This document shows positions 12,059 through 59,096 of a DNA stretch of 64,000 nt, one piece after another. The stretch lies in contig JAFDFZ010000008.1 of NCBI GenBank assembly GCA_019309565.1, forward strand, positions 36,751 to 100,750, written 5' to 3'. The stretch's first letter is position 1. The number at the start of each line of letters is the position of its first letter. The notes beneath the pieces are model-generated. The model did no database searches. It saw nothing but the letters and a program-made list of their open reading frames with translations, and was not told where the DNA came from. The position numbers and the translations under genes were made by a program. The DNA comes from Deltaproteobacteria bacterium. Its GTDB lineage: Bacteria; Desulfobacterota; Desulfobacteria; Desulfobacterales; SURF-15.

Positions 12059-12163
12059 TAAACCCCGTTGTTGGAGGGCAAATCAAAAGAAGCAGTCATC
12101 AGATGCTGATAAATCAGGCAATCGGGCCATTTTAATATTTGATTTACGCAACTACGGGGCAAA
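12059..12163. mobile_element. MITE-like element, subfamily B (CCCCGTTGTTG...GCAACTACGGGG)
   Basis: Left TAAA|CCCCGTTGTTGGAGG, right GCAACTACGGGG|CAAA; subterminal inverted repeat GCAAATCAAA/TTTGATTTACGC. Confidence 0.6.
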
Positions 12164-27017: not shown

Positions 27018-27277
27018 ATTTACCTCTTATTGCTGTCCAGAGAAGGCTACATCCATTTCCTGTTAATTACCAAACAGAGTATATGCTTAACACCATGCCG
27101 ATGGTTTTCCATTCCCTGTGCTGTCATCTGAAAGCAAAGGGAAAGGAGATCATAGAAATAATAGTTTGTTCTTCTTCAGAATGCAACCTGCTTTTGCCAG
27201 ATGTTATTATGAGCCAGGTTGAGCGGTTCCTCCTAACCCCGAACCCTGAACCTGGAACCGATTAGTTTAGCTATAAG

Positions 27278-27395
27278 TAAACCCCGTTAGAGAACGATGT
27301 TCTCTAACGACTATAGATGGTGGCATTAAACCACCATCTATAAGGAGTTATCTATACAACCGACAGGAGTCGGTGGCTTTCTCTAACGGGGTAAA
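27278..27395. mobile_element. MITE-like element, subfamily A copy 1 (118 bp)
   Basis: TAAA|CCCCGTTAGAGAA...TTCTCTAACGGGG|TAAA: 13-bp perfect TIRs, identical flanking tetranucleotide, internal hairpins; 3 mismatches to the copy at 32869. Confidence 0.85.
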
Positions 27396-32093: not shown

Positions 32094-32864
32094 ATGAAAG
32101 GTTTTCCAAAGAAAGGAAATAATCCCATGAGATGGATTCAAGTTGTTTGCTGGTTGCTGCTTTTGGGAAGCCCTGTGTTGACGTACGGTACGCAACCTGT
32201 GGATGCGCTTAAAGCACCCATCGATGAGGTCATTCGTATCCTGAAAGATCCTCAGTATAACGATGCGGCCAAGAAATCCGTTCAGAGAGAAAAAATTTGG
32301 AACATCATACAGGGCATTTTCGATTTCAAAGAAATTTCCATGCGAACACTGGCAGGAAACTGGAAAAAGTTATCGCCGGAACAACAAAAGGAATTTATAA
32401 ATGTCTTTTCACGATTTCTGGGTAATATCTACCTCGACAGAATCCAGAGCGGCTATAGCGATGAAAAGATAGTTTATGAAAGCCAGGAAATGCTTTCAGA
32501 AACGAAGGCAGTGGTGAAAACCAAGATCGTCCGAGATAACAACATGGAAATCCCCGTGGATTATCGAATGCGCAAGCGCGGAAACACGTGGAAAATATAC
32601 GACGTTCGAATCGAAGGGGTAAGCCTGGTAAAAAATTACAGAACCCAGTTCAAGCAGATTTTAATGAAAGAAACCCCCGATCAACTCATTGAACGAATCA
32701 AAAGAAAGGTTGAGGAGCAAAAACGAAAAACCGTTTCAGAAACCCCGCTCAGTCCTGAAGGTGTTGTCGCCAGAAGCAGATACGCCTGGCAGCATTTTAC
32801 TCAAGGATATTTTCTGCTTCTCTTATCGGATATCGGTCATCTGAGATCCTACTTGAACCACTAG
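32094..32864 (+). CDS. mlaC: MlaC/Ttg2D family phospholipid-binding periplasmic protein
   Basis: PIDEVIRILKDPQYND..., FDFKEISMRTLAGNWKKLSPEQQKEFINVFSRFLGNIYLDRI. Confidence 0.93.
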   Translation: MKGFPKKGNNPMRWIQVVCWLLLLGSPVLTYGTQPVDALKAPIDEVIRILKDPQYNDAAKKSVQREKIWNIIQGIFDFKEISMRTLAGNWKKLSPEQQKEFINVFSRFLGNIYLDRIQSGYSDEKIVYESQEMLSETKAVVKTKIVRDNNMEIPVDYRMRKRGNTWKIYDVRIEGVSLVKNYRTQFKQILMKETPDQLIERIKRKVEEQKRKTVSETPLSPEGVVARSRYAWQHFTQGYFLLLLSDIGHLRSYLNH

Positions 32865-32868
32865 TCAG

Positions 32869-32986
32869 TAAACCCCGTTAGAGAACGATGTTCTCTAACG
32901 ACTATAGATGGTGACATTAAACCACCATCTATAAGGAATTATCTATACAACCGACAGGAGTGGGTGGCTTTCTCTAACGGGGTAAA
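32869..32986. mobile_element. MITE-like element, subfamily A copy 2 (118 bp)
   Basis: TAAA|CCCCGTTAGAGAA...TTCTCTAACGGGG|TAAA; 115/118 identical by eye to 27278-27395. Confidence 0.85.
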
Positions 32987-32994
32987 ACGATGCG

Positions 32995-33663
32995 CTACCC
33001 TTCATAGAGCACCGCCAGAATCGTTGCCTTGCTGCTTTTCGCTGTAATCAAATGCGGTGTCGCAGATAAGTAATACGCACTATCACCCGGATTTAGATGG
33101 AAAATCTCCTCTCCTATTTTTAACATCGCCACCCCATTCAGAACATAGATAAACTCCTCTCCTTCGTGAATAGAACTCTCTTCTTCAGGGGCTTCCTCCA
33201 GTTGAACGATTAAAGCCTCCATATGGCGGCCCTTTACCTCCGGAGCCAGGCTTTTGTATGTGTATATCGGCTTCTGGCCTTTGCCGGATGTGGAGCGGGA
33301 GACAGTTTTCTGCTCTCCCTTGCGGGTAATCGAATAGAGTTTTTCGCCGATGCCCGAAACCAGACGGCTTAAAGCGCTGTCTAATGCTTTCGATAGTTTT
33401 ATGAGCGTGCCGAGCTGGGGTTGAATCTCATTGTTTTCGATCCTGGACAGAAATTCCACTTCAAACCCGGTCAGCTTTGAAAGCGTTTCCAGCGATATTC
33501 CTTTCTCCTCTCTTAAGCCGCGGACTCTGTGTCCGATATCCTCCGGACTGATTTCCTTTTCTACTTTGATGGCGCCGGTGAGATCTTCGAAAAAATCGAC
33601 GTTGATATGGGGAACAGTTTCTTTCTTTTCCATCATGCACTCCTCATTGCCCCCTTTTAACAT
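32995..33663 (-). CDS. XRE-family HTH regulator with C-terminal cupin domain
   Basis: HRVRGLREEKGISLETLSKLTGFEVEFLSRIENNEIQPQLGTLIKLSKAL; HEGEEFIYVLNGVAMLKIGEEIFHLNPGDSAYY. Confidence 0.92.
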   Translation of the reverse strand: MLKGGNEECMMEKKETVPHINVDFFEDLTGAIKVEKEISPEDIGHRVRGLREEKGISLETLSKLTGFEVEFLSRIENNEIQPQLGTLIKLSKALDSALSRLVSGIGEKLYSITRKGEQKTVSRSTSGKGQKPIYTYKSLAPEVKGRHMEALIVQLEEAPEEESSIHEGEEFIYVLNGVAMLKIGEEIFHLNPGDSAYYLSATPHLITAKSSKATILAVLYEG

Positions 33664-34815: not shown

Positions 34816-34975
34816 GGCGTTTCTCCTCATATAGCAATCCGCTACCCGCCTCAAGCCGGGAGCTTTAGGGACCAAGAGGTCAAGGGTAACAGATCAGTAT
34901 CCACAGGACCCTTGTCCCCTTGAATCCTTGAACACTCGAACCCTGTATCGAAGAAATCAAACTTAAACCTTCGTC

Positions 34976-58013: not shown

Positions 58014-58484
58014 ATGGGAAGCGGCCATATTAAAATTATTGCAGAAAACCGAAAGGCCCGCCACGATTATCATATTGAAAGCGAGGTTGAAGCAGGCCTT
58101 GTTTTGAAGGGAACAGAGGTAAAATCCCTCCGGCAGGGGCGAGTGAATCTAAAAGACGCCTATGCAAGGATCAAAGACGGTGAGGTATTTGTCTATCAGA
58201 TGCATATCGGTCCTTACCCCCATGCGTCCTACGACAATCATGAGCCGCTTCGACCAAGAAAACTGCTGCTCCATAAGCGTGAGATCAAACGGCTTTACGG
58301 CAAGGTAAATGAAAAAGGCTCAACGCTGGTTCCTCTTAAAATCTATTTCAAAAATGGAAAGGCCAAGTTATCGCTGGCACTTGCAAAAGGGAAACGAAAA
58401 TACGACAAGCGCGATGCCATCCGCCGTCGAGACGAACAGCGGGAGCTTGAGCGTACCCGCAAACAATACACGAGCAAGTATTAA
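58014..58484 (+). CDS. smpB: SsrA-binding protein
   Basis: IIAENRKARHDYHIESEVEAGLVLKGTEVKSLRQGRVNLKDAYA. Confidence 0.97.
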   Translation: MGSGHIKIIAENRKARHDYHIESEVEAGLVLKGTEVKSLRQGRVNLKDAYARIKDGEVFVYQMHIGPYPHASYDNHEPLRPRKLLLHKREIKRLYGKVNEKGSTLVPLKIYFKNGKAKLSLALAKGKRKYDKRDAIRRRDEQRELERTRKQYTSKY

Positions 58485-58575
58485 CCCCGTAGTTGCATAA
58501 GCCACATAGAAAATTGCCATTTTACTCTTTAATAGACCACGTTCTTCCTGGTGCCAATGAATTCAACGGGGTTAA
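58481..58575. mobile_element. MITE-like element, subfamily B in inverted orientation; left flank includes smpB stop
   Basis: TTAA|CCCCGTAGTTGCATAAG...TGAATTCAACGGGG|TTAA; identical 4-bp flanks. Confidence 0.65.
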
Positions 58576-58741
58576 CCCTTAAGCCCAGGGAACCGCAGAC
58601 GAATGCATGCCTGCATTTCGATGTGAACCTGCCAGCGCTTTGATACCCACATAATATCTTGACAAACTTACCGAATAAGCTTAATATTTTAATCAACAGT
58701 TCTTTCAAATACCCTCTTACCCGCCTTTCATCTTAAAGAAT

Positions 58742-59096
58742 GGGGGCGAAACGGGTTCGACGGGGATAATGAAGTTCAGGCTGCATACCGAGCATCCTGT
58801 CTGCTCGTTAATCCGACGGGAACTAAACATAATCGCAGACGATTATGCATATGCTCTGGCCGCTTAATTAGGCCAGCGTCCCGCCGGTTGTTCCTGCGGT
58901 ATCGGCAGGGACGTCGACTCAGCAGGATAGCCACTCTGCCTGCCTGCGGCAGAGCGGGCGAAATTTCAGCAGGCTAAGCCTTCGGGTATCCGGTCTGAAG
59001 GAGACCTGAAGGACGAAAATCAAAATTCAGACTAAGTATGTAGATGCCTGTACGGAATATTTCCGGACGCGGGTTCGACTCCCGCCGCCTCCACCA
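58742..59096 (+). ncRNA. ssrA: tmRNA (transfer-messenger RNA)
   Basis: 5' GGGGGCGAAACGGGTTCGACGGGG, 3' GGGTTCGACTCCCGCCGCCTCCACCA, acceptor pairing GGGGGCG/CGCCTCC; tag frame GCAGACGATTATGCATATGCTCTGGCCGCTTAA (58835-58867) = ADDYAYALAA. Confidence 0.96.

Follow-up and report, generated by a model that had tools for sequence, protein, structure and literature searches.

An oriented, gene-less repeat with inverted and foldable ends, very probably a non-autonomous mobile element with relatives across its phylum

The stretch of DNA considered here, referred to as the window, comprises 64,000 nucleotides of a genome assembly (G000; 5.47 Mb in 288 contigs, 97% complete, 8% contamination), and the relatives of one protein encoded in it are Desulfobacterales. 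Two copies of a short repeat, termed element A, lie on its forward strand at positions 27278–27395 and 32869–32986; each measures 118 bp including a TAAA on both sides, the first copy consisting of 110 bp from CCCC to GGGG with TAAA at either side. The second copy occupies a short convergent gap between a forward-strand gene ending at 32864 and a reverse-strand gene ending at 32995, beginning a few bases past one stop codon and stopping just before the end of the convergent gene. Direct reading bore out the description given in an earlier note on this DNA, namely two copies with three differing positions (97.5% identity), 13-bp terminal inverted repeats (TIRs; CCCCGTTAGAGAA on the left, TTCTCTAACGGGG on the right) and TAAA outside each of them. 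The succession of end, spacing and end occurs twice in the window, as against 0.00 expected from 100 shuffles of the window, and the element is devoid of coding capacity.

In the first copy, the target-side flank AG-TAAA (27276–27281) is followed by the left TIR CCCCGTTAGAGAA (27282–27294), which forms the 5' arm of a closing stem, P1, whose 3' arm is the right TIR TTCTCTAACGGGG (27379–27391); all features are given on the forward strand. A left-end hairpin, P1a (GTTAGAGAAC-GAT-GTTCTCTAAC, 27286–27308), is the alternative to P1, and this pairing, also proposed earlier, is present. The middle hairpin P2 (TATAGATGGTGG-CATTAAA-CCACCATCTATA, 27312–27342) shows compensatory changes at five pairs, and its loop motif C(A/T)TTAAA reappears in relatives of the element; the claim that this TATAGATGGTGG/CCACCATCTATA hairpin is perfect holds for copy 1 and fails for copy 2, in which there is one mismatch (GTGA). 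A right-side hairpin, P3 (CAACCGAC-AGGA-GTCGGTGG, 27357–27376), reads CCACCGAC in some other copies, and the right TAAA (27392–27395) constitutes the second copy of the target tetranucleotide.

Across G000, element A occurs in 40 copies of about 118 bp that are complete or almost so, with identities of 90–100%, together with 77 exact occurrences of the left TIR, so that the possibility of only two copies, raised beforehand, falls away. The copies stand in every arrangement relative to neighbouring genes, with neither placement nor orientation constant, and no match to the element was obtained among plasmids, phages and viral contigs. The same genome holds short forms of 31–33 bp in which only a palindrome, CCCCGTTAGAGAACGATGTTCTCTAACGGGG, is present between TAAA-like flanks; these are minimal forms of element A, and one that occupies the same site as a full copy in a host repeat is accounted for by deletion between the direct repeats TTCTCTAACG. 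Another 31-bp palindrome form (contig C178, L054:2880–2920) carries a compensated change, GTCAGAGAAC/GTTCTCTGAC, and has TAAA and TTTA as flanks, so the palindrome reads on through them.

The boundaries of the element are set by sites with and without it. Within host repeat X, of which G000 holds several copies, a full element A is present in contig C246, a 31-bp short form occupies the same position in C38, and the site is empty in C157, where ...CTAAAAAG-TAAA-AAGGAAGG... runs on uninterrupted. Similarly, repeat W reads ...CACATAG-TAAA-ATTGCC... without interruption at two loci (L251 and L235) and is split by element A at a third (L265). Since a single TAAA in the empty state becomes two in the filled state in both X and W, the element proper is CCCC...GGGG, and these two unrelated host repeats record its clean entry at a single TAAA. 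Several loci of a third repeat, Y, in which AAGTAAAC is found, also have element A, each time at the same TAAA, in agreement with X and W. Empty sites with a single TAAA, which the earlier note had proposed to look for, thus exist, and its term MITE-like is upheld by the copy number, the TIRs, the lack of coding capacity and these empty sites. Element A is very probably a non-autonomous mobile element whose movement depends on a transposase acting in trans, which was not found here.

Two of these host repeats have features of their own. Family W (CCCCGTAGTTG...CAACAACGGGG, also CCCCGTAGTTGC...CAACAACGGGG) is about 97 bp long, occurs in the window at 12062–12159 and at about 58481–58590, and is bordered by matching 4 bp on its two sides, in both orientations (TAAA, TTTA, TTCA and TAGA); one member lies directly upstream of the tmRNA gene (58742–59096). 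Repeat Y (AAGTAAACTACGTACCGGCTT-AAGCCGGTAGCTTTAGGGG) is a REP-like hairpin and a recurrent insertion site of element A, with loci at L271:6749–6835 and elsewhere in the own genome and a fragment in the window at 34843–34885; no Rfam match was obtained for it.

Relatives of the element extend well beyond its own genome. A two-ended pattern search over 395 genomes of the phylum gave matches in 26 of them, and a reversed control gave none, while in an exact-match search with one 14-base end over 390 genomes of the order only G000 and G005, the latter a member of another family, exceeded two copies. G005 contains dozens of related elements in several subfamilies; in G557, which belongs to a different family, one copy is 90% identical to the window element, and several related families have no left hairpin. 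A literature search returned no description of this end sequence as a mobile element, and element A is a member of a large phylum-wide family that is apparently undescribed. A further group, seen in G557 and G477 (L358, L359 and L395–L420), keeps a constant length of about 80 bp between flanks and has the same ends, but its interiors have diverged strongly, and its 4-bp flanks vary yet match each other; this family, in the set formed by G477, G557 and G723, shows little internal folding. In addition, certain G005 elements of about 104 bp (e.g., L282:9850 and L284:1953) share flanks beyond TAAA, GAGTG on the left and GAAAA on the right, which indicates that they are embedded in a larger repeat.

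Insertion is oriented with respect to an asymmetric target. Upstream of the left TAAA, an A is found in 29 and a G in 32 of 34 own-genome copies, and no base is conserved after the right TAAA; among elements from other genomes, G precedes TAAA in 33 of 40. When own-genome copies with a paired TAAA flank are oriented by their interiors, TAAA and never TTTA is read on both sides (37/37), the other 12 paired-end forms having changed or truncated flanks. A fixed orientation is likewise seen in a second family (16/16) and in elements with the CATTAAA loop (12/12), with none reversed. Insertion thus takes place 3' of (A)GTAAA, with GGGGTAAA at the right end, in one orientation. A two-fold symmetric complex of a DDE transposase acting on an asymmetric site is expected to insert in both orientations, and a target of this kind, always the same way round, is odd for an ordinary MITE.

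Own-genome flanks are almost all TAAA and cannot separate a duplication from a part of the element. In G005, left and right flanks are identical in 22 of 29 elements (p = 0.012), weak evidence for duplication; in G477, G557 and G723, collected with a pattern that left the flanks nearly free, the two tetranucleotides are identical in 14 of 18 against 6.2 expected (p about 1e-5), with matched pairs that include CAAA/CAAA, TCAA/TCAA and TGAA/TGAA. Judged from these sequences, the covariation favours a true target duplication, although the same picture could come from subfamilies in which guide and cleavage motifs are matched.

A replication-strand bias offers suggestive, weak evidence on the manner of insertion, being strong in G000 and not reproduced in G005. 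In G000, the TAAA strand is the one with negative local GC skew in 29 of 40 copies, whereas intergenic GTAAA sites lie that way in 42% of cases (p about 1e-4; regression intercept t = -4.4), and the bias holds after correction for gene direction; in G005 it is absent (26/52). An orientation that follows the skew is expected if insertion is tied to replication; the negative-skew strand is, however, not the strand that the IS608 model predicts to carry the left-flank target.

The fold of element A exceeds chance by a wide margin (z = -8.1 as DNA and -8.5 as RNA; 0 of 200 shuffles as stable). As DNA, the closing stem and the left hairpin, each combined with the other two hairpins, are close in energy (-23.1 and -24.2), and as RNA the closing-stem fold is ahead by about 9 kcal/mol. 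Across an alignment of G000 and G005 elements, P1, P2 and P3 are kept, with 92.5% of cells paired and double-sided changes in 21 cells (0 of 500 shuffles), the closing stem and the middle hairpin covarying between the two genomes. P1a gave no covariation signal on this set; once relatives from G557, G618, G696, G723 and G748 were added, 12 double-sided changes appeared, again with 0 of 500 shuffles, so that P1a covaries at the level of the phylum. The aligned rows are related, and such double-change counts do not represent independent events; in slid controls, however, only about half as much pairing is left. Two partners are accordingly open to the left arm, both pairings having been kept over long times. 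The mutually exclusive folds described earlier are in this respect real and old, conserved between lineages, and compensatory changes are present between lineages, so that the other ground for refutation named beforehand falls away as well.

Within the own genome, the behaviour of the stems is different: over 35 aligned copies, the substitution level is the same in paired as in unpaired columns (1.05 each), 27 G-U cells stand against 25 A-C cells, and no selected compensation is seen. In our reading, the structure is kept by which copies can still move and not by a job at each locus. Free mutation of stems among own-genome copies argues against a working switch in each copy, and because single-strand transposition ordinarily requires hairpins at the ends of the transposon, alternative folds alone do not imply one. 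The proposal of an RNA or cruciform switch, in which two exclusive folds would regulate neighbouring genes, is highly unlikely. It draws on the near-equal energies of the two folds as single-stranded DNA and on their conservation between lineages; against it stand the decay of stems at the rate of loops, wobble pairs without strand preference, the lack of a constant gene context, the dominance of one fold as RNA and the absence of the left hairpin from several related families. No Rfam match above threshold was obtained over element A, and a riboswitch or other RNA was rejected on this ground and because of the neutral decay within the genome. An attC-type integron site was also set aside on inspection, given the opposite polarity of the GTT/AAC core and the dispersed copies.

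An autonomous transposase with the same ends, as envisaged by the earlier note, was sought and not found in the genomes searched. Y1 transposase loci were examined in G000, G005 and nine further genomes that contain such elements; none has element ends around it, and Y1 genes were rejected as carriers of element A in these genomes for want of matching ends. G005 has only a degenerate Y1 gene, and G723 contains elements and no Y1 gene. A Y1 fragment near an element in contig C158 of G005 was likewise dismissed as a carrier, the fragment being degenerate and the adjoining element complete in itself. IS1380, a DDE family with CC ends and 4-bp duplications, was tested on account of these features and rejected as partner: its one full copy in G000 has ends that do not match, and G005 has none. 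Moreover, neither G000 nor the G005 loci that were read nor three near-complete genomes (one of 10 contigs) yielded a longer element with these ends, all of these assemblies being incomplete; in the three near-complete genomes no convergent pair of ends spans more than about 350 bp, pairs farther apart having been checked from coordinate lists and in the loci read. The DDE search covered IS1380, and metagenome assemblies often lose repeats, so the absence of a partner is not proven. The lack of a longer element or a transposase gene with these ends is odd for an ordinary MITE.

G000 has several Y1 genes of about 330 aa with TIRs resembling those published for TIR-associated tyrosine transposases (TIRYTs), and the larger Y1 genes of element-bearing genomes resemble TIRYTs with GGGG-starting repeats (cf. 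PMC6006769); the TIRs of the TIRYT-like loci in G000 start GGGGACGT, unlike CCCCGTTAGA. At four loci (L180, L182, L183 and L184), TIRYT-type Y1 genes are flanked by long inverted repeats; that of L183 is interrupted by some 270 bp of inserted DNA in which a W-type repeat lies, and the near-identical L184 is without this insertion.

Among known systems, bacterial MITEs (RUP, NEMIS/Correia, ERIC and Nezha, among others) share with element A a length of about 100 bp, TIRs, the lack of genes, tens of copies, short direct repeats at the ends and a mostly intergenic position; element A differs in having no partner IS found, an asymmetric target used in one orientation and hairpins that covary between lineages. 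IS200/IS605 elements have subterminal hairpins, a flanking target tetranucleotide and make use of the lagging-strand template (PMC6006769), and palindrome-associated elements (PATEs) are their non-coding relatives, with a core lost by repeat-mediated deletion (PMC3119063). PATEs resemble element A in their hairpins near both ends, short target motif, single orientation and core deletions between internal direct repeats; they have neither TIRs nor target duplication (PMC3119063), whereas element A has strong TIRs and end tetranucleotides that match even when they vary. The type A small mobile repeat (SMR) of Haloquadratum (PMC3119063) is similar in that it measures about 110 bp, has prominent inverted ends and no related transposon, is present in tens of copies and moves in a way that is not known, but it has no target duplication and targets other mobile elements, and element A adjoins a duplicated TAAA at many unrelated sites. 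REPINs with their RAYTs (PMC3116915) and TIRYT elements (PMC6006769, PMC3733652) likewise combine inverted conserved ends with a foldable, variable spacer and spread in trans; unlike them, element A has neither the GTAG tag nor the GGGGWSAS motif, and no RAYT or TIRYT gene with its ends was found.

Single-strand chemistry of the HUH type, similar to that of IS200/IS605, is the mode of movement tentatively preferred here. The 110-bp element would insert in fixed orientation 3' of (A)GTAAA, which would leave TAAA at both ends; the enzyme would recognise folded ends on single-stranded DNA (P1a on the left, P3 on the right and the closing stem P1) and would cut at GTAAA on either side, in the manner of IS200/IS605-type HUH transposases acting on palindrome-associated elements. 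Such a mode is favoured by the oriented one-sided target and by end hairpins kept through compensatory change, and it is disfavoured by the strong TIRs, which are not a PATE feature, by the covarying 4-bp flanks, by the want of a Y1 gene with matching ends among the loci examined in 11 genomes (none at all in G723, a degenerate one in G005), by the little-folded family of about 80 bp, and by a skew bias that is missing in G005 and falls on the strand opposite to the IS608 prediction. A conventional MITE, for which a DDE transposase of an unassembled or absent IS would read the CCCCGTTAGA ends as double-stranded DNA and duplicate 4 bp at TNAA, with the hairpins as leftovers or by-products, is possible, if on the doubtful side; TIRs at every copy, flanks that vary together in G477, G557 and G723 and the presence in the same genome of family W with matched 4-bp flanks in both orientations speak for it, and the fixed orientation relative to an asymmetric target, the one-sided target consensus, the structural covariation of internal hairpins, the missing longer element and the unmatched ends of IS1380 speak against it.

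In short, element A resembles a product of HUH transposition in its one-sided, oriented target and its conserved hairpins at the ends, and one of DDE transposition in its inverted ends and the 4-bp flanks that covary. That the phylum-wide CCCCGTTAGA-ended elements form one transposase-orphan superfamily, whose enzyme would read folded ends and an oriented GTRAA and yet leave a 4-base duplication, is a rather unlikely reading that would join both sides; to our knowledge, this combination is not known from DDE or HUH transposases. Spread by a REP- or TIR-associated tyrosine transposase of the host is more doubtful still: REPINs are inverted doublets with compensatory spacer changes too (PMC3116915), and the Y1 genes of about 330 aa in G000 have TIRYT-like TIRs, but no GTAG or CGTC tag is present at the hairpin foot, TIRYT repeats begin GGGG[AT][CG]A[CG] (PMC6006769) and element A begins CCCCGTTAGA, and among the Y1 loci examined there is neither one with element ends nor a RAYT flanked by the repeat.

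The gene-less elements of this family occur in 26 or more genomes of a single phylum; their ends and target are well defined and their fold is conserved, and no recognisable enzyme goes with them. An orphan family of this kind suggests either a mobilisation system not recognised so far or a known one put to a very unusual use. With its oriented target and a substrate that may be single- or double-stranded, it provides a clean test case for how gene-less bacterial repeats spread, and it serves as a warning for annotators that these hairpins are mobile DNA, not riboswitches.
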